Shown: positions 4,081-30,639 of the stretch, in pieces
Numbering within the stretch: the first letter of the stretch is position 1
Layout: every line of letters starts with the position of its first letter
Source: a virus
Strand: one strand, 5' to 3'
Length of the DNA stretch: 31,223 bases
IMG/VR virus record: IMGVR_UViG_3300003886_000033
Coordinates: 1 to 31,223 of that record
Position numbers and translations under genes: made by a program
The notes under the pieces: model-generated
Seen by the model: the letters and a program-made list of their open reading frames with translations, nothing else
Told to the model about the DNA's origin: nothing
Databases searched by the model: none

Positions 4081-4704
4081 GTAAGCAGCTACTTCAGGTG
4101 GCTGTCTCTTCTAAACTCAAGGTTATCTAGGCCTGTATACCGGTCTACGGGGTTCGCCCGTGACAGCGACGTTGAACCCTCAAAGGCTGTACAGCAGTAC
4201 TCAGGGGTGAGCATCCTCTACGGGATGTCATGGCATGACCCAGGGCCTTAGAGGGTGTCCGTCGCTCACGCAAGAGCATCCCAATCATAAGTGCCGCTGG
4301 TAAAGGTGGACCTGGGCAGCTGAGAGAAACGTGCTTATGAACATATCCGGTCCCAGCGGTACCATTCCCGCATATCTCGATGAGCAACGGCGACGTTCCT
4401 GGCTCCACAGCAAGTAACTGATTCAAGTTCTGAGGTATCCCTCCTTTGTGTTTTCAGATGTCATCCACCTTCGTCTGTTATCACAGGGGGGGATATCTCT
4501 GTAAGCTGCTGGTCTTAGTAGCCTTTTCCAAGCAAGTGTAACGACCGGTATTAACGACTGGTATTGTGGTGTCTAGCTTTAAGAATCTGAGAAGAAGTTG
4601 AGAGTATGACTACAGATGTCGCGAACCATACGCGAGAAGAAGCAACATTACGTCTGTAGCGCAAGCGCGGAGGGATGGGTCTAATCATCTAACCAGAGAT
4701 CTAA
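4081..4704. other. Long intergenic control region without convincing genes
   Basis: About 620 bp between the leftward small-gene operon and the rightward operon hold no frame that looks like protein on either strand. The most regular element is a tandem 13-mer, AACGACYGGTATT, at 4540-4552 and 4553-4565 with one mismatch. A second short direct repeat, ATCTAACCAGA, occurs twice around 4687-4707. Repeats placed between divergent operons suggest an operator or a replication origin. I could not settle which. The repressor and replication genes usually found at this place are absent. Confidence 0.5.
4540..4565. repeat. Tandem 13-bp repeat, operator/iteron candidate
   Basis: Two head-to-tail copies of AACGACYGGTATT differ at one position (C or T). 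They lie near the middle of the divergent intergenic region. The spacing of 13 bp is not a whole helical turn, so cooperative binding to one face is not obvious. Repeat structure is seen; function is inferred from position. Confidence 0.5.
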
Positions 4705-5535: not shown

Positions 5536-6240
5536 ATGAGCCGAGGCTGCGAGATTCCGAAATGCAAGCGACCCCACGAGGCGCGGGGGCTCTGTGCGAT
5601 GCATTACGTTCGCCAGAAGAAGACAGGCACGACCAGACAGCGGCCACCGCACAGGACGAAACAGTGCAGGGCGCCGAAGTGCAAGCGGCCAGCCAAAGCA
5701 AAGCAGCTTTGTCAACTTCACTACCGGAGACAGAAGGCGTTCGACTCATATGATCTGCCAAGCGCTCCCACCTGCGCCGTTGCCTCGTGTACCAGGAAGG
5801 CACTGGTTCATCGCGTTTGCGGGATGCATTGGCATCGGATCGAAACCAATGGCCGCATCGACAAACGCGTGCCGCAATGCCTGGCAGCAGATTGCAACGA
5901 ACCTCAGGCCTGCTCGACGTTCTGTAACTTTCATTATTATCGGCGAGTGAAATCAACACGATCGCCGGTCGGCATCAGTTACCACACGAGCCCTGAGGAC
6001 AGTGCATCGCATTGGGATGCCCTCATCGAGGGAATGGTCTTGTCGCACCGGCCTGGCCTGTTCGAGACGGACTGGGAGGCCCTCTTCAAGGCCGACCCCG
6101 CTATTCTGGGTCACCTCGTTCGAGACCTGGCCATGGTCGGAATCTCGTCCTCTACCCCCGGCCAACGTGCGGCTTCTGAGCAGGAAATCCGGGATGAACT
6201 ATCACAGATCTCGGCCTTGAAGGGCCTCGCTCTACGCTGA
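5536..6240 (+). CDS. Four-finger CCCH array protein with novel C-terminal domain
   Basis: This 234-aa protein carries four exact C-x4-C-x9-C-x2-H units at residues 5/10/20/23, 44/49/59/62, 80/85/95/98 and 115/120/130/133. Each is followed by basic residues (HYVRQKKTG type). These are the zinc-finger-like units usually found singly before HNH nuclease domains. Here no nuclease domain follows. Residues about 155-234 form a separate domain with F-x2-DW-x3-F-x2-DP-x2-LG-x3-RD, which is shared with the protein at 6748-7365. I infer sequence-specific DNA or RNA binding by the finger array; the C-terminal role is unknown. No strong ribosome site is visible. Confidence 0.75.
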   Translation: MSRGCEIPKCKRPHEARGLCAMHYVRQKKTGTTRQRPPHRTKQCRAPKCKRPAKAKQLCQLHYRRQKAFDSYDLPSAPTCAVASCTRKALVHRVCGMHWHRIETNGRIDKRVPQCLAADCNEPQACSTFCNFHYYRRVKSTRSPVGISYHTSPEDSASHWDALIEGMVLSHRPGLFETDWEALFKADPAILGHLVRDLAMVGISSSTPGQRAASEQEIRDELSQISALKGLALR

Positions 6241-6286: not shown

Positions 6287-6751
6287 ATGAGCGACAAACG
6301 TATTTGCGAACTTGAAGAGTGTACGGCGAAACACTATGGACACGGCTGGTGTCACCTCCACTGGCGCCGACAGCGCAGGCATGGAACAACGGGCGCCTGG
6401 ACCCCACTGCATCGGTTCGCCGACCTGATCGAACCAGACCGCTCAACCGAGGATGGTTGCTGGGTCTTTCAAGGCACACGACGCAACGACGGCTACGGCC
6501 AGTTCGGCACTGCCCGAAGGGTCCACGTCGCGCACCGTTGGTTCTATGAGCAGGTGGTCGGCCCAGTAGAACCTGGTTTCGAGCTTGACCACTTGTGCAG
6601 AAACCGGCGCTGTGTCCGCATCGGGCACCTGGAGACAGTTTCGCATCGCGAGAACGTGCTGCGCTCTCGCCGCCTCACACCACCTGAACACTTCGCCGCC
6701 CGTGGTCGGAGCTTGGCAGCTGAAATCGACGCGTCGAAGGCTTTGGCATGA
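6287..6751 (+). CDS. Finger-HNH endonuclease, probably weakened active site
   Basis: From ATG 6287 this is a 154-aa protein; an upstream ATG at 6248 would add 13 residues and is equally possible. Residues 7/12/22/25 form one C-x4-C-x9-C-x2-H finger. The HNH domain follows: GCWVFQG, VAHRWFYEQVVGP, FELDHLCRNRRCV, GHLETVSHRENVLRS. The catalytic His of LDHLC is present. The usual CVNPxHL reads CVRIGHL, so the central Asn-Pro of the motif is lost. It lies between two finger-array genes and overlaps the second (ATGA at 6748). It is a free-standing homing-type nuclease by family, though activity is doubtful. Confidence 0.8.
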   Translation: MSDKRICELEECTAKHYGHGWCHLHWRRQRRHGTTGAWTPLHRFADLIEPDRSTEDGCWVFQGTRRNDGYGQFGTARRVHVAHRWFYEQVVGPVEPGFELDHLCRNRRCVRIGHLETVSHRENVLRSRRLTPPEHFAARGRSLAAEIDASKALA

Positions 6752-7365
6752 CTCGATTCTGCAGCTTAGAAGATTGCGAGCGTCCTCTGTACGCCACGGA
6801 GCTTTGCTCCTTGCATTATGAGAGAGTAAGACGCACCGGGCACACAAACCATGTCCCACGTCTCCTGTCCACTCGAATCTGTGGCCTAGGGGATTGCCTA
6901 CGACCTCACAGCGCTTTGGGCCTATGTGGGATGCACTACTCTCGCCAACGGAAGAGCGGTACAACCGACGCTCCTAAACGGAACCAACGCAAGCAATCAA
7001 CAGCAGGCCGACCAGGAAGCCTCAAAGGTCCGTGCGCTGTGCCACTGTGTTACGAACTCTCATTTCTCAAGGGCACCTGCACGCTCCACTATAACCGGAT
7101 GCTCAGGACCGGAACATTCGACGGCCCTTCCGAGAAACTCGAAGCCAAGATGGTAGAGATCGAAGGCGCCTTTGCTAAAGGAACCTTCGACCAAGACTGG
7201 TCAACTATCTTCTCTGACGACCCTGTGGTCTTGGGCCAGGTGATTAGAGACGTACTCCTACTCGGCGCCAGCGACCCTCGCAGAAGCGGCAGGCGGACAG
7301 CCGATAAAGAAGCCCTCGTTGAAGAGGCAAAGACGCTGGGGAAGCTCCACAACCTCGTGAACTAG
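6748..7365 (+). CDS. Three-finger CCCH array protein, paralogue of 5536-6240
   Basis: This 205-aa protein has three C-x4-C-x9-C-x2-H units at 5/10/20/23, 45/50/60/63 and 96/101/111/114, each with the trailing HYxRxxxTG pattern. The C-terminal domain (about 127-205) repeats the F-x2-DW-x3-F-x2-DP-x2-LG-x3-RD signature of the protein at 5536 with identical spacing (F147, D150-W151, D158-P159, R167-D168). The two proteins therefore share an architecture but differ in finger number. The start overlaps the HNH gene by 4 bp, so the three genes are one translational unit. No nuclease motif is present. Confidence 0.75.
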   Translation: MTRFCSLEDCERPLYATELCSLHYERVRRTGHTNHVPRLLSTRICGLGDCLRPHSALGLCGMHYSRQRKSGTTDAPKRNQRKQSTAGRPGSLKGPCAVPLCYELSFLKGTCTLHYNRMLRTGTFDGPSEKLEAKMVEIEGAFAKGTFDQDWSTIFSDDPVVLGQVIRDVLLLGASDPRRSGRRTADKEALVEEAKTLGKLHNLVN

Positions 7366-7500: not shown

Positions 7501-7630
7501 AAGTTCGTAGGCTTGCGCTTCGTGTTCCAACACCTCCATGAGGCGTGAGCCTCCGCCCCACACCTCCCCAAGTTCGCGGGCTTTGCGTGAGCATTTCAAA
7601 CCGCTCCTAGGAGCGCAAAGCCCGCACCTC
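7501..7630. other. Repeat- and hairpin-rich region, possible cos/terminase site
   Basis: The gap 7366-7653 holds a 12-bp perfect inverted repeat (GCGGGCTTTGCG at 7576-7587, complement at 7614-7625, 26-nt loop). It also has an inner palindrome (GCTCCTAGGAGC, 7603-7614). Two imperfect direct repeats occur, AAGTTCG..GGC(T)TTGCG at 7501-7517 and 7570-7587, and GCGTGAGC appears at 7543-7550 and 7585-7592. The C-run ACCTCCCCCCGCCC follows. The neighbouring HNH gene and the nearby terminase fit a cos site, because HNH proteins beside terminase assist cos cleavage. A transcription terminator after the finger operon is the alternative. Confidence 0.45.
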
Positions 7631-7653
7631 CCCCCGCCCTAGAGAGGAACATC

Positions 7654-11482: not shown

Positions 11483-12826
11483 ATGTCACTGCTCAGCGCG
11501 CTCTTTGACACCGAGACCCGTTCACTGTCCTACCAAGATATCTGGGGCAAAGGGCTGGACCTTTCAGGCTTCGGCTCGCGTTCCAAAGCTGGCGAAGTGG
11601 TTAACAAGACTACTGCACTCCAGCTGACCGCGGTTTACGGCTCAGTCAGAATCCTCTCAGAGGGACTTGGACAGCTACCTCGTGACGTATTCGTCAGGGG
11701 TGAGGACGAGAGCCGCGTAAAGCTGGATCGTCCTTCATGGGTTGAGCAAGCAAACGCGGATCTCGAATGGAACGAGTACGTCGCTCAGCTGATGGTTTCG
11801 CTCCTCCTGGATGGCAACGCTTACGCAGCGATTCAGTATTCAACGACAGGCGAAGTGGAACAGCTGTGGCCTCTTAATCCTGCCTTGGTGGACGTGCAGA
11901 AGGTAGGCGGAAGGATCGTCTTCACCGTCGGCTCTGAGACTTATGACTCCAGCCAGATCCTCCACATCAAAGGCATGTGTCACCCAGGGGCCTTGAAGGG
12001 CATCGCACCTATCGAGGCCTGCCGCGAAGCCATCGGCGCTGCCCTAGCAACCCAGACCTATGGAGCAGAGTTCTTCGCAGGCGACGCAACACCTGGCGTG
12101 GTCCTCAACCTCCCTGGCGAAGTAACTCCTGTCGGCGTTCAGCAAGCCAAGAAGGCCTGGTCAGCCCACAACAAGCGTGGCTCAGTCGCTGTCCTAACTG
12201 AGGGCGCCAGCTTCCAGCAGGTAAGCATCACGCCTGAGCAGTCGCAGTTCCTGGCCACGCGCGAATTCAACGTCTCAGAGATCGCAAGAATCTTCGGAAT
12301 CCCGCCTCACCTACTCGCTGACGCCACGGGTTCTACCTCATGGGGCTCAGGCCTAGCAGAGCAGAGCACTAACTACGTCACGCACTCCTTGAATCCTTGG
12401 GTACGTCGCATCGAAGCGCGCCACAACCGCCTGCTTCTCGGCGGACAGTTCTTACGCCTCAACGTGGACGGGCTGCTGCGCGGTGACTACACGACTCGCT
12501 GGGATACGCACCGCAAGAACTTCGCGGCTGGTCTCCAGTCAGCGGACGAGATCAGGGCTATCGAAGATCAGAAGCCTCTCCCTGACGGGCAAGGTCAGAC
12601 CTTCCTGAGGCCACTTAACCTGGCACCCGTTCAGGATGATGAAGGCGAAGAGATCCTGTCCACGCTCGAACTCGCCACTGTTATTCAACGCGTGTATTTG
12701 GGCGTCGGCAAGGTTATGAGCGCAAAGGAAGCGCGAAAGCTTCTCACGGACGCTGGAATTGTTCTGGACCCTGAGATGCCTGAAGAGCTACTCCCTCAAG
12801 AGGAGACACTAAGTGTTGACAACTAG
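11483..12826 (+). CDS. Portal protein (HK97 gp3 type)
   Basis: The 447-aa protein forms the dodecameric ring at the capsid vertex through which DNA passes. Family features: TALQLTAVYGSVRILSEGLG near residue 48, WNEYVAQLMVSLLLDGNAYA (about 95-115), LWPLNP, ILHIKGM, and the clip/crown region ending FNVSEIARIFGIPPHLLADA. The C-terminal fifth is acidic and low in conservation. The ribosome site GGAGGTGG precedes ATG 11483. The end overlaps the next gene by 14 bp, which is unusual because that gene is an HNH nuclease. Confidence 0.95.
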   Translation: MSLLSALFDTETRSLSYQDIWGKGLDLSGFGSRSKAGEVVNKTTALQLTAVYGSVRILSEGLGQLPRDVFVRGEDESRVKLDRPSWVEQANADLEWNEYVAQLMVSLLLDGNAYAAIQYSTTGEVEQLWPLNPALVDVQKVGGRIVFTVGSETYDSSQILHIKGMCHPGALKGIAPIEACREAIGAALATQTYGAEFFAGDATPGVVLNLPGEVTPVGVQQAKKAWSAHNKRGSVAVLTEGASFQQVSITPEQSQFLATREFNVSEIARIFGIPPHLLADATGSTSWGSGLAEQSTNYVTHSLNPWVRRIEARHNRLLLGGQFLRLNVDGLLRGDYTTRWDTHRKNFAAGLQSADEIRAIEDQKPLPDGQGQTFLRPLNLAPVQDDEGEEILSTLELATVIQRVYLGVGKVMSAKEARKLLTDAGIVLDPEMPEELLPQEETLSVDN

Positions 12827-13424
12827 AGACGTATGTGCGGTAGCTCAGTGCGAGCGCCAGCGAGTGAGCACTAAGCGAAGTCACTGCAAGGCCCACGACT
12901 GGCGCCTCGTAAATCATGGCGATGTACAGGCTCACAAGCCGATCAGATCCAAAGGAACCCTTCCAGCCTTCATCGCCACTGCTGTTGCCAGCGAGACGGA
13001 TACGTGCATTATCTGGCCCTACAGCACTGCCGGAAAAGGCTATCCAGTCTTCAATGTCGCGGGACGAAACGTCTATGTCCACCGACACGTACTCGCTTTG
13101 GCGACTGGCAATGAACCGGAAGGCAAGGAAGCTGCCCACGCTCCTGTTATTTGCCATACACCAGCATGCATTAATCCCAGACACCTTAGGTGGGCAACTC
13201 GTTCAGAGAACCACAGAGACAAGGTATTAGATGGTACGGACAGCCGAGGCGAAAACAGCGCCACAGCAAAGCTCACTTTTAAGCAAGTACTGGCCATACG
13301 CCGCGACCCTCGGATCGGCCGAGAGATTGCGACCGACTACAGAGTCTCTGTAGCCACCATCTGTAACATAGTAAATCACAAGACCTGGCTTACGGCTGAC
13401 ACCTCACCAGGAGATGTGGAGTAG
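12813..13424 (+). CDS. HNH homing endonuclease with finger and C-terminal HTH
   Basis: This 203-aa protein starts at GTG 12813, behind GAGGAG, inside the end of the portal gene. Residues 8/13/25/28 form a C-x4-C-x11-C-x2-H finger, two residues longer than the other fingers of this phage. The HNH core is VYVHRHVLALATGNEP...AHAPVICHTPACINPRHLRW. The C-terminus (about 144-195) is a helix-turn-helix of the type found in mobile HNH proteins (ATAKLTFKQVLAIRR...IATDYRVSVATICNIV). It stands between portal and structural genes, and its stop overlaps the next start (TAGTG), so it is fully integrated in the late transcript. It should nick or cut a specific site. Confidence 0.88.
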   Translation: MLTTRDVCAVAQCERQRVSTKRSHCKAHDWRLVNHGDVQAHKPIRSKGTLPAFIATAVASETDTCIIWPYSTAGKGYPVFNVAGRNVYVHRHVLALATGNEPEGKEAAHAPVICHTPACINPRHLRWATRSENHRDKVLDGTDSRGENSATAKLTFKQVLAIRRDPRIGREIATDYRVSVATICNIVNHKTWLTADTSPGDVE

Positions 13425-14053
13425 TGGCAGCTAGCATTGACTGGCCTAGTGGTGTTATCACGATCCAACAATCAGACACCAGCCTGCTAACACAACTCAG
13501 CGCCACCTTGTACCGTCTTGACACGAACGCGCTCCGACTCGACTTGAAGAATCAAGAAGACAGCAGCGAGGGCATGGCTTGGACGAGAACTCATTCTCAC
13601 AATGGTGTCGTTGTCATTGGCGGCCTAACTTTGGTTAGGACCATATCTATATTGACGCCTTACTCGATTATATTCCTCCCGGACAGCCAATGGTCTGTTC
13701 AGATGGATGGCGCGACTAACAACAACTATGCTGACGTGCAGGGCGGTATCCTCGTTCAGAACCAGGTTCAGGTTATCACAGCCAACTCCGCAGGTAATAC
13801 CGTGACGGAGACTGGTGTCAGTGGTTTGACTATAGCTGAATCAGCAGCCCTGCTCAGCGCAGCTGCCGAGGCTCTTCTCGCTCGTAAACTGATTGATGCC
13901 GACAGAGTTCTTACAGAAGGCGACTCCAGCAACATGGAGTGGATCGACGCCGACGACGGAACCACTGTCTTGAGAATCAAGGACGTTAAGGACAAGGGCG
14001 GCTCTGCGATCACGTTAACTGACGGAGCCCCCGCCGAAGAACGTAGATCATAA
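13424..14053 (+). CDS. Virion structural protein, marine-phage family
   Basis: The 209-aa protein starts at GTG 13424. Residues 1-125 carry a pattern I know from structural proteins of many pelagic and soil siphophages: LDTNALRLDLKNQEDSSEGM, TRTHSHNGVVVIGGLTLVRT, then GATNNNYADV and ITANSAGNTV. The C-terminal part (about 150-209) is helical, then beta (DGTTVLRIKDVKDKGG). The protein is probably an external or neck-associated decoration component. Assignment comes from pattern memory and position between portal and protease; the precise role is unknown. Confidence 0.65.
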   Translation: MAASIDWPSGVITIQQSDTSLLTQLSATLYRLDTNALRLDLKNQEDSSEGMAWTRTHSHNGVVVIGGLTLVRTISILTPYSIIFLPDSQWSVQMDGATNNNYADVQGGILVQNQVQVITANSAGNTVTETGVSGLTIAESAALLSAAAEALLARKLIDADRVLTEGDSSNMEWIDADDGTTVLRIKDVKDKGGSAITLTDGAPAEERRS

Positions 14054-14105
14054 TGCTTTACGAGACCACACGGCTAGACGAGACCACAGACAAGGCGGAA
14101 GACTA

Positions 14106-14405
14106 ATGGCTATCTACGCGGGCGAGACCGTTGTCTTCGTAACTTCAGCTACTCAGGTCGACGACGCTAACACGCCTCTCACCGACGCGGACGTTACGTC
14201 TGCAACGATCACAATCTACGACTCGTCCGACAGCAGCGAGGTTCTGGCCAGCACCGCAATGGTGTGGAACGCCACCGACGTTAAATGGCGCTACTCGTGG
14301 ACCACGGCAACAGCAGGCAAGTTCGAGGCCCGCCTACGGCTTGCTGGCCTGACCTTCGATACCTTTGAGTATCAGAAGGTTACCGTCATACCAGATAAGT
14401 TCTAA
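14106..14405 (+). CDS. Ig-like beta-sandwich structural protein (99 aa)
   Basis: This 99-aa, all-beta protein (ETVVFVTSATQVDDANTPLT, ATITIYDSSDSSEV, KWRYSWTTATAGKFEARLRL, FEYQKVTVIPDKF) looks like an immunoglobulin-like domain of the kind used as capsid or tail decoration. The pattern T-x-G-x(3)-A-R-L-x-L near the end is typical. It partners the preceding gene in related phages. The next gene starts directly after its stop (14406). Confidence 0.65.
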   Translation: MAIYAGETVVFVTSATQVDDANTPLTDADVTSATITIYDSSDSSEVLASTAMVWNATDVKWRYSWTTATAGKFEARLRLAGLTFDTFEYQKVTVIPDKF

Positions 14406-14690
14406 ATGACTTCAACAGTCATCAAAGAATCCAACGGCATCACGCTGGTAGAGAGTGTTCGGACAGTCCGCATGGTCGGCACGAAACTCTCGTACAAAGA
14501 CCACAGCTACAGCGTTCACGGCACAGTTGACGGCATTCCCTGCACATCCGGCCCACTAGGAACACTGTCTTACGGTGAGCACGTCTTCAAGCTGTGGACA
14601 GACCCCGCCTACAGCAAACGTATCGGCGCACTAGTTGACACATCTAAAGCCATCAACGGTTCAGTCCGTTGCAGCCTGGCTGAGCTTTAA
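14406..14690 (+). CDS. Hypothetical beta-rich protein (94 aa)
   Basis: This 94-aa protein starts the base after the previous stop and ends 8 bp before the protease gene. Predicted strands (GITLVESVRTVRMVGTKLSY, SYSVHGTVDGIPC, EHVFKLWTD) suggest a small beta domain with two Cys. Tight spacing shows that it belongs to the head-gene operon. I recognise no family. Confidence 0.65.
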   Translation: MTSTVIKESNGITLVESVRTVRMVGTKLSYKDHSYSVHGTVDGIPCTSGPLGTLSYGEHVFKLWTDPAYSKRIGALVDTSKAINGSVRCSLAEL

Positions 14691-14698
14691 GGAGAAAC

Positions 14699-15433
14699 AT
14701 GAAACTCGATACAACCTCTTATGAAGTCAGACAGCATTCCGACCCGCTGGAGATCCGCGAGCAGGATGGCGCCAAGGTCATCGTTGGATATGCCGCAAGG
14801 TTCAACACAACCAGCAAGAACATGGGCGGATTCGTTGAGACGATCAAGCCTGGCGCCTTCACCAAGACCCTGCAAGAGCAGGACATCGTAGCTCTCTTCA
14901 ATCACGACAAGATGAGACTCCTTGGACGCATGTCGGCAGGAACACTCAAGCTGGAAGAGGACTCGATCGGCCTTCGCTACGAGATCCTCCCACCCGACAC
15001 AACCACAGGACGAGACCTCATCGAACTCGTGGGACGTGGCGACATCCAAGGTTCCAGCTTCGGGTTCGTAAAGATCCCTGGCGGAGACTCGTGGGGAACG
15101 ACTCCTCAGGGCTTCGCTCTCCGCACGCTCTCAGAGGTTGCCCTTCGTGACGTGGGACCGGTTGTGTTCCCAGCGTACGCCGAGACAGACGTTGCCCTGA
15201 GATCCTTCTGCGAGTTCACAGACCTAGCCATCGAGGACGTAGAGGCAGCAGCCACAGAGCAGCGCCTACATGACCTCTTGACCGAAGAACGTAACGAAGA
15301 ATCTTCGGACACAGACTCTGATAACACCCCTGGCAACAGTCAGGACCTAACAGACGAAACGAAGGAAGACGACAGCGGTAGCGGGCCGGTAACCCCACCT
15401 GCTCGCGTGATTCGTCACAACTTCAGACGCTAA
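14699..15433 (+). CDS. Prohead maturation protease (HK97 gp4 family)
   Basis: The 244-aa serine protease (family S78 type) removes the scaffolding domain of the capsid protein. Motifs: GYAARFNTTSKNMGGFVETI, PGAFTKTL, then catalytic His69 in ALFNHD and Ser120 in GSSFGFVKI, with DVGPVVFPAYAETDVALRS at the end of the domain. After residue 190 a long acidic tail (NEESSDTDSDNTPGNSQD) ends in basic residues (RVIRHNFRR). Such tails often act in capsid targeting or are self-cleaved. Ribosome site AAGGAG lies before ATG 14699. Confidence 0.94.
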   Translation: MKLDTTSYEVRQHSDPLEIREQDGAKVIVGYAARFNTTSKNMGGFVETIKPGAFTKTLQEQDIVALFNHDKMRLLGRMSAGTLKLEEDSIGLRYEILPPDTTTGRDLIELVGRGDIQGSSFGFVKIPGGDSWGTTPQGFALRTLSEVALRDVGPVVFPAYAETDVALRSFCEFTDLAIEDVEAAATEQRLHDLLTEERNEESSDTDSDNTPGNSQDLTDETKEDDSGSGPVTPPARVIRHNFRR

Positions 15434-15451
15434 CTCCAGTTAGCAAACGCT

Positions 15452-15581
15452 TAGGCCGGACGATCTCCACCTAGCACGCCATGGACCTTAAGGGGTCCAG
15501 TCAACCGAACGCAGGCACCTAGCCGCGTTCATCCCGGACGTAAGTCCATCCCCAAATCTGACGAGCGTGCTGGGCGGCCTA
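15452..15581 (+). ncRNA. Structured RNA leader before the major capsid gene
   Basis: The 197-bp gap upstream of the capsid gene folds on paper into a closed multi-branch structure. The outer stem is 15452-15458 with 15575-15581 (7 bp). After an 11-nt one-sided bulge, 15470-15479 pairs with 15565-15574 (10 bp, one G-U). Inside are three hairpins: 15482-15487/15494-15499 (6 bp), 15507-15512/15525-15530 (6 bp, plus 3 bp beyond a bulged A), and 15536-15539/15544-15547 closed by a GUAA tetraloop of the GNRA class. The capsid ribosome site lies 37 nt further on. I infer a cis-acting RNA, possibly controlling capsid yield or mRNA processing; a DNA-level signal is also possible. No energy calculation was made. 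Confidence 0.6.
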
Positions 15582-15630
15582 CGGGGCCTTGTTCGACGCG
15601 CCTCGTCTCCAACTCCACAGGAGAAACGAA

Positions 15631-16800
15631 ATGTCGAATACACAAACACAGGCGCTCTTCGTTGAGCGTATGAAGGCCATCACTGAGCTTCGCACCCTTG
15701 CCGATGAGGCAGAGGGCCGTGAGCTAACCGCCGAAGAAGTCGAGACTCGTGATCGTGTTGACGGAGCTATCGACGCTCTCGATATCCGCATCGCTGATGC
15801 TCTCAAGGAAGGCGCTCGTGAAGAGCGTGCCGCTGAGTTCTCAGCACAGCTTGAGACCAGCACCCCTGAGGTTCCCGAAGCTGACGTAGAAATGCGCCAG
15901 TGGGAAGGCCTGATTACTGGTGACGAGAAGAGCATCGAGCTTCGTGACCTGACAGCAGGCACCGCTACTGATGGTGCCGAGCTTGTTGCCACCTCAACTG
16001 TTGGCCAGATCTACGCTTTTATGCGTGAGAACGTCAACGCTGTTGGTGCTCAGGCCCGCATGGTCAACACCGACTCTGGTGGGGACCTCGTGTTTCCTAC
16101 CACTACCAGCTTCTCAGCGGCAACGATCATCGCTGAAGGTGCAACCGTCACTGAGTCCGACCCACAGTTCGCAACCGTAACTTTGGGTGCGTTCAAGATC
16201 GGCCACGCTGTCCAGATCAGCTCAGAACTTGAGCAGGATTCCGCAGCTAACGTTGTTGGCTTCGTCCGCGATCAGGGTGTAGAAGCTCTTGCTCGTGGCA
16301 TGGGTGGTTACTTCCTGACCGGTACCGGTTCAGGTCAGCCCAACGGTGCGGTCAATACGACCAACGCCAACAACGTCACATTTGCTGGCGTAGCCGCAAT
16401 CACTGGCGATGAACTCATCGACGTGTATCACGGTCTGGCGTCGCCTTACCGCCCACGTGCAAGCTTCATCGTGAAGGACAGCACCCTGTCCCTCATCCGC
16501 AAGCTGAAGGACGGCAACGGTCAGTACCTCTGGACTCCAGGGCTACAGGCTGACCAGCCCGACACTCTCTTGGGCCGTCCGGTCTTTGTGGATGACGGCA
16601 TAGCTGTAGCTGCTACCGGAAACATCAGCGTCCTGTTTGGCGACTACAGCGGCTATCTGGTTCGCATGGTCGGCAACGTACGTGTTGATCGTTCGGCAGA
16701 GTTTGCCTTCGGTTCGGACCTTGTGACCTACCGGTTCCTGGCACGCGTTGACGGTGACATCCTGGACAACAGGGCCATCGTCTCAGGCACCCAAGCCTAA
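15631..16800 (+). CDS. Major capsid protein (HK97 gp5 fold)
   Basis: The 389-aa protein starts at ATG 15631 behind ACAGGAGAAAC; the frame is open further upstream without a ribosome site. Residues 1 to about 95 are a charged helical scaffolding (delta) domain, which the protease just upstream should remove. The mature domain shows N-arm, spine helix and P-domain features typical of HK97 (TSTVGQIYAFMREN, FKIGHAVQISSELEQDSA, FLTGTGSGQPNG, LLGRPVFVDD). No lysine-asparagine crosslinking chemistry can be inferred from sequence alone. Confidence 0.95.
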   Translation: MSNTQTQALFVERMKAITELRTLADEAEGRELTAEEVETRDRVDGAIDALDIRIADALKEGAREERAAEFSAQLETSTPEVPEADVEMRQWEGLITGDEKSIELRDLTAGTATDGAELVATSTVGQIYAFMRENVNAVGAQARMVNTDSGGDLVFPTTTSFSAATIIAEGATVTESDPQFATVTLGAFKIGHAVQISSELEQDSAANVVGFVRDQGVEALARGMGGYFLTGTGSGQPNGAVNTTNANNVTFAGVAAITGDELIDVYHGLASPYRPRASFIVKDSTLSLIRKLKDGNGQYLWTPGLQADQPDTLLGRPVFVDDGIAVAATGNISVLFGDYSGYLVRMVGNVRVDRSAEFAFGSDLVTYRFLARVDGDILDNRAIVSGTQA

Positions 16801-16808
16801 CCAGGCTT
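16793..16808 (+). repeat. Hairpin overlapping the capsid stop codon, copy 1
   Basis: AAGCCT-AACC-AGGCTT forms a perfect 6-bp hairpin with a 4-nt loop. The capsid stop codon TAA lies within it. An identical 17-bp copy including the preceding C occurs at 17214-17230, after the next gene. A further hairpin follows here (AGGCC-CACG-GGCCT). No T tract follows, so it is not a standard terminator; RNA stabilisation at the capsid 3' end is a possible role. Confidence 0.6.
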
Positions 16809-16959
16809 AACCCAGGCCTAATCAGCCTAACGAGGCCCACGGGCCTTGAAGTATTTGGGGGAGAGTGGCAGGTCTAAAAAGCGGCCTGCTGCTTTCCCTT
16901 ATCTACCTATCTATCCATTTCTCTCCACCTACCTCCATATCAAAGAAGGACTCTTTCCC

Positions 16960-17211
16960 ATGATGTACGTACGACTCACCTCAGGCCATGTAGTCAAGTG
17001 TGACAACGCCAAGGCTTTGCGCCTCATCGAGAAGGAAGACGCGTCACAGGTCACTCTCGAAGAGCTAGCCCAGATCGACGACGTTGAACAGATCGAAACA
17101 CCTGAACAGATCACAGACGTTGAACAGATGACAACGATCGAAGCTCCTGCAAAGGCGAAGACGTCTAGCTCTAAGAAGAGCACGAAGCCATCTAAGGCAT
17201 CCAAGGCGTAA
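16960..17211 (+). CDS. Small head-associated protein with Lys/Ser-rich tail (83 aa)
   Basis: The 83-aa protein starts at ATG 16960 behind AAGGA. Residues 1-25 form a small beta segment (MMYVRLTSGHVVKCDNAKAL). The middle is acidic and helical with a repeated DVEQIETPEQ-type motif, and the tail is basic (SSSKKSTKPSKASKA). Similar small proteins with lysine-rich tails follow the capsid gene in actinophages and may bind DNA or decorate the head. Function is inferred from position only. Confidence 0.65.
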   Translation: MMYVRLTSGHVVKCDNAKALRLIEKEDASQVTLEELAQIDDVEQIETPEQITDVEQMTTIEAPAKAKTSSSKKSTKPSKASKA

Positions 17212-17214
17212 CAC

Positions 17215-17230
17215 AAGCCTAACCAGGCTT
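17215..17230 (+). repeat. Hairpin AAGCCT-AACC-AGGCTT, copy 2
   Basis: This is identical to 16793-16808 and located just after the stop of the small head-associated gene. A second, longer hairpin follows: 17238-17242 with 17261-17265 and, after one bulged A, 17244-17250 with 17254-17260 (12 bp in total, 3-nt loop). Next comes a G-rich run (GGGCTGGGGGCGGGGG), then a C-rich run. The block separates the capsid genes from the connector genes and may attenuate transcription or stabilise the capsid message. Confidence 0.55.
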
Positions 17231-20201: not shown

Positions 20202-20969
20202 ATGCAGACATGTTCCGTTATAGATTGCTCACGACCTGAATACGCTCGCACTTGGTGCACCAAGCACTATCAACGTTGGCTCACCCATAGAGACCCCACT
20301 AAGACGCTACGCGTTCCCCCACCTACTGTGTGTGCAATAGAAGGTTGCGACAAGCCATGGCACGCCAGGGTCTGGTGCGTAACCCACTACGCAAGATGGC
20401 AGAGACACGGAGATCCTAACGCCTATCTACGTGACTATCCAGACACCTGTTCTGTCGATGGTTGTGCCAGGCCCTTTAGCGCCAAAGGCTTCTGTAAGCA
20501 TCACTATAGCAAATGGTACAAACACGGAGATGCTCTATGGGAACGTCCACCGATACAGCTTGTCTGTTCCATTGAGGGCTGCGATAAACCCTTCAAGACT
20601 AAGGGCCTGTGCAGTATGCACGGGGAGCGGTTGCGCATTCATGGGGACCCGCTCCATGTTACGTACAGACCTACAGCACACGAGCGCTTCCTAGCCAAGG
20701 TCGTTAAGACCGACACCTGCTGGCTATGGCAAGGTTCCCACACGCGGCAGGGCCACGGCACTTTCAACCCGCACTGCAAGACGATAGGTGCACATCGCTA
20801 CAGCTACGAGCACTACGTAGGCCCGATTCCAGAGAGCTTAGACGTGGACCATATGTGCCGCGTACCAGCGTGCGTGAATCCCAAGCATCTTGAACCCGTT
20901 ACGAAGTCCGAGAATCAGCTGCGCGCTCATCTCTCAGCAAAAGATCACTACGCGCTAATCGGCACGTAG
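20202..20969 (+). CDS. Four-finger HNH homing endonuclease in the tail operon
   Basis: This 255-aa protein has four perfect C-x4-C-x9-C-x2-H fingers at 4/9/19/22, 44/49/59/62, 83/88/98/101 and 122/127/137/140, each followed by a HYxRWxxHGD-type segment. An intact HNH domain comes next: CWLWQGS, GAHRYSYEHYVGPIPE, LDVDHMCRVPACVNPKHLE, TKSENQLRAH. The catalytic His, the Asn of CVNP and the final His are all present. It interrupts the usual order between tail completion and tail chaperone genes, with 56 and 22 bp gaps, as a mobile free-standing endonuclease would. The long finger array should give it an extended recognition site. Confidence 0.9.
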   Translation: MQTCSVIDCSRPEYARTWCTKHYQRWLTHRDPTKTLRVPPPTVCAIEGCDKPWHARVWCVTHYARWQRHGDPNAYLRDYPDTCSVDGCARPFSAKGFCKHHYSKWYKHGDALWERPPIQLVCSIEGCDKPFKTKGLCSMHGERLRIHGDPLHVTYRPTAHERFLAKVVKTDTCWLWQGSHTRQGHGTFNPHCKTIGAHRYSYEHYVGPIPESLDVDHMCRVPACVNPKHLEPVTKSENQLRAHLSAKDHYALIGT

Positions 20970-30595: not shown

Positions 30596-30639
30596 CCCTC
30601 TCAAGGTGGTAGCACGGGTTCAAATCCCGTACGGGGTAC
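30596..30639 (+). repeat. attR core (44-bp direct repeat, right copy)
   Basis: This copy is identical to 48-91. It is a 3' tRNA-Glu fragment without a matching 5' acceptor strand, so it is not a tRNA. Phage sequence directly before it keeps GGCCTAGGATGCC (30576-30588), which matches 12 of 13 bases of the tRNA D-arm (34-46) but is set 6 bp further from the core. Beyond it, TGCGAAGG marks the start of host DNA, which lacks the CCA found at the left end. Confidence 0.95.

Follow-up and report, generated by a model that had tools for sequence, protein, structure and literature searches.

A stably folding non-coding segment upstream of the major capsid gene as a possible RNA leader in a prophage related to phiC31-like phages

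The prophage and its protease-capsid gap

The window analyzed here, i.e., the whole 31,223-nt stretch of IMG/VR record IMGVR_UViG_3300003886_000033, contains a prophage of ~30.5 kb within a tRNA-Glu gene, bounded by a 44-bp att repeat (48-91 and 30596-30639). Its genes follow the usual order of integrase, terminase, portal, protease, major capsid protein (MCP), and tail genes. By synteny and sequence identity (terminase ~40-44%, portal 38-50%, protease 42-47%, MCP 32-39%), the prophage is nearest to phiC31-like Streptomyces phages. Three genes at 5536-6240, 6748-7365, and 20202-20969 carry tandem cysteine/histidine-rich repeats, one of them with an HNH-like tail; the two of these that were tested had no Pfam match, and all three look like free-standing HNH-associated proteins. 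A terminator-like hairpin, ACCCAAGCCTAACCAGGCTT, is repeated at 16789-16808 and 16810-16829 after the capsid gene and recurs at 17211-17230 after the next gene.

The protease stop at 15433 and the MCP start at 15631 are separated by 197 gene-free nucleotides (Table 1); in syntenic phages of the phiC31-like group, this gap measures ~-1 to 11 nt. Among 240 related loci, gaps are mostly 5-36 nt. Given the short gaps in the nearest syntenic relatives, the simplest view is that ~180 nt were gained on the prophage's own lineage.

Table 1 Features of the protease-capsid junction (positions in the window)
Feature	Positions	Strand	Support or remark
Prohead (head maturation) protease gene, 5' neighbour	14699-15433	+	PHROG 80, E 1e-48
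16-bp perfect palindrome GCTAACTCCAGTTAGC over the protease stop codon	15429-15444	+	Possible small hairpin or DNA site
Direct repeat AACTCCA, left copy	15432-15438	+	Possible insertion boundary
Structured intercistronic RNA; outer stem 15452-15457/15576-15581, inner stem 15470-15479/15565-15574	15452-15581	+	Predicted fold
Mini-hairpin, 3 bp (15458-15460/15466-15468), inside 11-nt bulge	15458-15468	+	Probability ~0.3-0.8 by context
Hairpin 1, 7 bp, UAAG loop	15482-15499	+	MFE fold
4-bp helix (15500-15503/15559-15562) around hairpins 2 and 3	15500-15562	+	MFE fold
Hairpin 2, 6+3 bp, one bulged A	15507-15530	+	MFE fold
Hairpin 3, 4 bp, GUAA (GNRA) loop 15540-15543	15536-15547	+	MFE fold
Second domain, two-tier hairpin (15590-15598/15632-15640; 15603-15610/15620-15629)	15590-15640	+	z -2.5
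Direct repeat AACTCCA, right copy	15611-15617	+	
HK97-fold major capsid protein (MCP) gene	15631-16800	+	PHROG 10, E 3e-71

The motif AACTCCA at both edges of the gap suggests an insertion, and deleting 15439-15617 leaves a gap of 18 nt, which is ordinary for relatives. The segment could thus be an insertion or duplication of ~172-179 bp that is functionless now and whose inverted repeats reflect its origin and not selection on RNA. An HNH endonuclease and other extra genes inserted nearby (12813-14690) fit this explanation, as does the lack of homologues of the segment. However, the AACTCCA repeat is weak evidence of insertion because it is only 7 bp long; the chance of finding such a repeat between edges this short is an estimated few per cent. 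Furthermore, the repeat edges lack terminal inverted repeats, phage, plasmid, and genome searches found no copies elsewhere, and it is the sense strand that has the stronger fold. We consider an insertion devoid of function somewhat unlikely.

The palindrome over the protease stop codon shares its core with a second CTAAC-N4-GTTAG palindrome at 13625-13638, and both are possible DNA-binding sites. Its interpretation as a repeated operator was rejected, as one other full-match core (13625) is not above chance.

Predicted fold of the intercistronic RNA

The segment at 15452-15581 is predicted to fold with a minimum free energy (MFE) of -59.3 kcal/mol, as compared to -40.3 +/- 3.8 kcal/mol in shuffled copies (z -5.02). 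None of 200 dinucleotide shuffles matched this energy, which bears out the claim of an earlier, sequence-only reading that so compact a fold is rare by chance. In a scan of the + strand of the genome, the segment ranked second among 621 folding windows of 130 nt each; the other top windows start at 7502, 52 (the tRNA), and 4402, and several are comparable to it. Two long hairpins are located near 7502 (7502-7631, z ~-5.8), and a long hairpin around GGTATCCCTCC...GGGGGGGATATC is located near 4402 (4402-4531, z ~-4.9). The arms of the element pair as DNA too. RNA on the sense strand is nevertheless the favoured reading, as the antisense folds worse relative to shuffles (z -3.1 versus -5.0 for the sense strand).

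Pairing of the inner stem has a probability of ~1 in every sequence context tried; that of the outer stem ranges from ~0.4 to 0.95 by context, in competition with neighbouring pairings. The structure originally drawn, consisting of a 7-bp outer stem (15452-15458/15575-15581), an 11-nt bulge, a 10-bp inner stem, and three hairpins, evaluates to -57.9 kcal/mol, and the GNRA cap ascribed to one hairpin is indeed present as the GUAA loop of hairpin 3. The term 'four-way junction' describes this near-optimal fold, 1.4 kcal/mol above the MFE, but not the lowest-energy topology, in which a 4-bp helix encloses hairpins 2 and 3 and turns the four-way junction into two three-way junctions; the MFE fold also has the mini-hairpin in the 11-nt bulge. 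A direct repeat, CCGGACG, to which alternative pairings had been attributed, does occur in the element, but a 7-mer recurring within 130 nt is close to chance expectation and the alternative pairings are not above chance. The region was also correctly read as gene-free: its sole sense ATG frame has 13 codons (15481-15522) and no Shine-Dalgarno sequence, and a leader peptide was rejected on this account.

Searches for relatives of the element were negative. With Rfam 15, the whole window yielded only a tRNA at 18-90, and 15400-15660 gave no meaningful match to ribozymes, riboswitches, or other families at E-values up to 10. The string CUGACGA resembles part of the hammerhead ribozyme core, the remainder of which is absent. 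Scanning with a covariance model of the element gave no credible match in the remainder of the window, across ~90 related loci, or among 396 Actinomycetota genomes; weak matches (L166, L250, G200, and G260) scored 11-21 bits as compared to 176 bits for the element itself and look chance-like. No copy of the element came up when phage and plasmid records were searched at the DNA level or when IMG/VR was scanned with two patterns, although records near-identical to the window may have been missing from the collections searched. The element is also absent from the nearest relatives as judged by a 209-aa gene. No homologue was thus found in the sets searched that could be aligned for covariation, and the weight of the finding is limited because the element is an orphan.

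A compact, closed fold would also be expected of a separate small RNA, trans-acting or otherwise regulatory, that is excised from or transcribed inside the structural operon and is unrelated to capsid expression. However, neither a consensus promoter nor a terminator-like site was found on the + strand of the gap, and Rfam was negative even at permissive E-values. We regard such a small RNA as quite improbable.

RNA elements at the same junction in sister actinophages

Protease-MCP gaps of 93-500 nt are found in a sister group made up mostly of metagenomic phages, with Pontimonas phage phiPsal1 among its members. In many of these loci, a promoter-like -10 sequence of the TAGACT/TAAACT/TAGAAT type is located 90-101 nt before the MCP start and is followed by two hairpins. 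These twin hairpins share a design of outer stem, asymmetric loop of 2-4/1-2 nt, 3-bp stem, and G-C-closed loop (e.g., GAGC, UUAG, or UCAG), and lie no more than ~100 nt 5' of the capsid start (L195, L206, L209, L224, L238-L245, L252-L272, and L319-L393, most of them). A descriptor built on 25 loci was tested on 58 further distinct leaders and recovered both hairpins in 31 of the 58; the rate was 0.6% in shuffles, and 0 of 290 segments taken from within the MCP gene matched. The 58 leaders are not independent trials, however, because the loci are related. For 17 hairpins of one geometry, changes on both sides of the stem were present in 26 of 102 cells. The covariation score of the 17 hairpins was 0.82, whereas shuffles scored 0.23 and slid pairings no more than 0.24; as the hairpins had been chosen with pairing as a condition, the information lies in the variety of pair types. 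Twin hairpins have no Rfam family, and their descriptor gave 0 matches in 15434-15625. Folding z-scores of most covarying sister leaders are ordinary, and the low z of the prophage element alone is therefore no proof of function.

A second type of sister leader, recognized by eye, is a nested hairpin with two internal loops in which 5' NNCGGA is opposite 3' CACCAC. It occurs in several of L205, L211-L230, L248, and L250, whose capsid start is preceded by a gap of 96-133 nt. In addition, phiPsal1 and three IMG/VR contigs encode a tag-less tmRNA-like RNA of 82-83 nt in their protease-capsid gap (L195:2773-2854, L239:726-808, L261:1884-1966, and L262:915-996). It matches the Rfam tmRNA model with 54.6-65.1 bits and consists of an acceptor stem with a G3-U pair, a D-loop, P2, and a T-arm, with no mRNA-like domain. 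This RNA may serve as a site of processing or as a trans-translation decoy.

The prophage element might likewise be a degenerate tRNA- or tmRNA-like processing element, as it occupies the same junction as the tag-less RNA of phiPsal1 and has a 7-bp closing stem, then an 11-nt single-stranded stretch, and then a long helix. Yet it possesses neither a T-arm nor a CCA-like 3' end, and ARAGORN and Rfam were negative. The absence of the T-arm mostly refutes this identity, which we hold to be extremely improbable. The presence of twin hairpins and tag-less tmRNA-like RNA at the same junction nonetheless makes capsid leaders a recurring theme, even though neither is found in the window.

Capsid ribosome site and a possible cis leader

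From a single operon, tailed phages have to produce capsid protein in large excess over protease. To our knowledge, the setting of the capsid:protease ratio in actinophages is little studied. The hairpin of the second domain pairs the Shine-Dalgarno sequence GGAG (15620-15623) and part of the MCP start codon with a probability near 1 in all contexts. Opening of the MCP ribosome site requires 6.1 kcal/mol, which is the median value among 256 related capsid genes, 126 of which are at least as closed. Within the prophage, the MCP start is among the more accessible ones (6.1 versus 3.2-18.8 kcal/mol for listed genes). Because it opens as readily as the median relative, the second domain is not evidence of regulation, and sequestration of the ribosome site was rejected as a special feature. 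A riboswitch-like helix of GACGAG (15560-15565) and CUCGUC (15602-15607) was also discarded, as it is within chance (an estimated ~10%).

These results bear on the hypothesis that the junction is a translational operator, i.e., that a protein of phage or host origin, possibly the capsid protein, attaches to it and, together with the Shine-Dalgarno hairpin, represses or times capsid translation. The near-complete pairing of the ribosome site would suit such a mechanism, sister phages have twin covarying hairpins directly 5' of the capsid ribosome site, and in T4, gp43 and gp32 each bind to a structured leader on their own mRNA (PMC3014915). However, the capsid ribosome site is not specially closed in comparison with the 256 related genes, and the six-base alternative pairing that could serve as a switch does not exceed chance. 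We judge an operator to be unlikely, although it ranks, along with an insertion devoid of function, as a main alternative to a leader.

What is directly established for the element is its position, the absence of genes, the stability of its sense-strand fold, and its absence from relatives. It is tempting to propose, albeit tentatively, as the likeliest of the explanations considered, that the ~180-nt non-coding segment gained before the capsid gene acts as a cis leader of the capsid message. Briefly, the segment would be transcribed with the operon and borne on the late structural mRNA, where the junction would form in vivo and set the capsid ribosome site apart from upstream sequence. The junction might also shield a putative processed 5' end and thereby stabilize the capsid part of the late mRNA, and capsid protein would then be made at a level different from that of the preceding protease. 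The accessible MCP ribosome site directly 3' of the element is compatible with such insulation. The 'capsid-expression leader' considered in the sequence-only reading is thus supported in part, in that its place fits and phages of the same capsid family carry covarying RNA leaders at this junction.

If real, a dedicated RNA leader between the protease and capsid genes would represent a post-transcriptional control point that takes various forms in related phages. A broader proposal, which counts twin hairpins, nested modules, tag-less tmRNA-like RNAs, and the multi-way junction of the window together, is that the actinophage protease-capsid junction is a recurrent site of capsid-controlling cis RNA devices and that the window holds an undescribed class of these; we consider this generalization speculative and doubtful.

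Among known systems, the autogenous translational operators of T4 genes 32 and 43 resemble the element in that structured RNA precedes the start codon of a phage gene and lies close to, or overlaps, the ribosome site. Protein binding is proven for the T4 operators (PMC3014915); in the window, the predicted junction is larger and stands in front of a capsid gene. The tmRNA family (RF00023) is represented at this junction by its tag-less form, in phiPsal1 and three other contigs; in the window, a T-arm and an RF00023 match are both lacking. Nested-module leaders (L212, L214, and L248) lack counterparts in the window for their facing CACCAC strand and nested internal loops, as judged by eye, but have the junction and CCGGA strings in common with the element. 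Twin-hairpin leaders, finally, are built from two hairpins of ~19-28 nt with a G-C-closed loop, of which the gap in the window has 0, but like the element they are non-coding and occupy the same junction, directly 5' of the capsid ribosome site.
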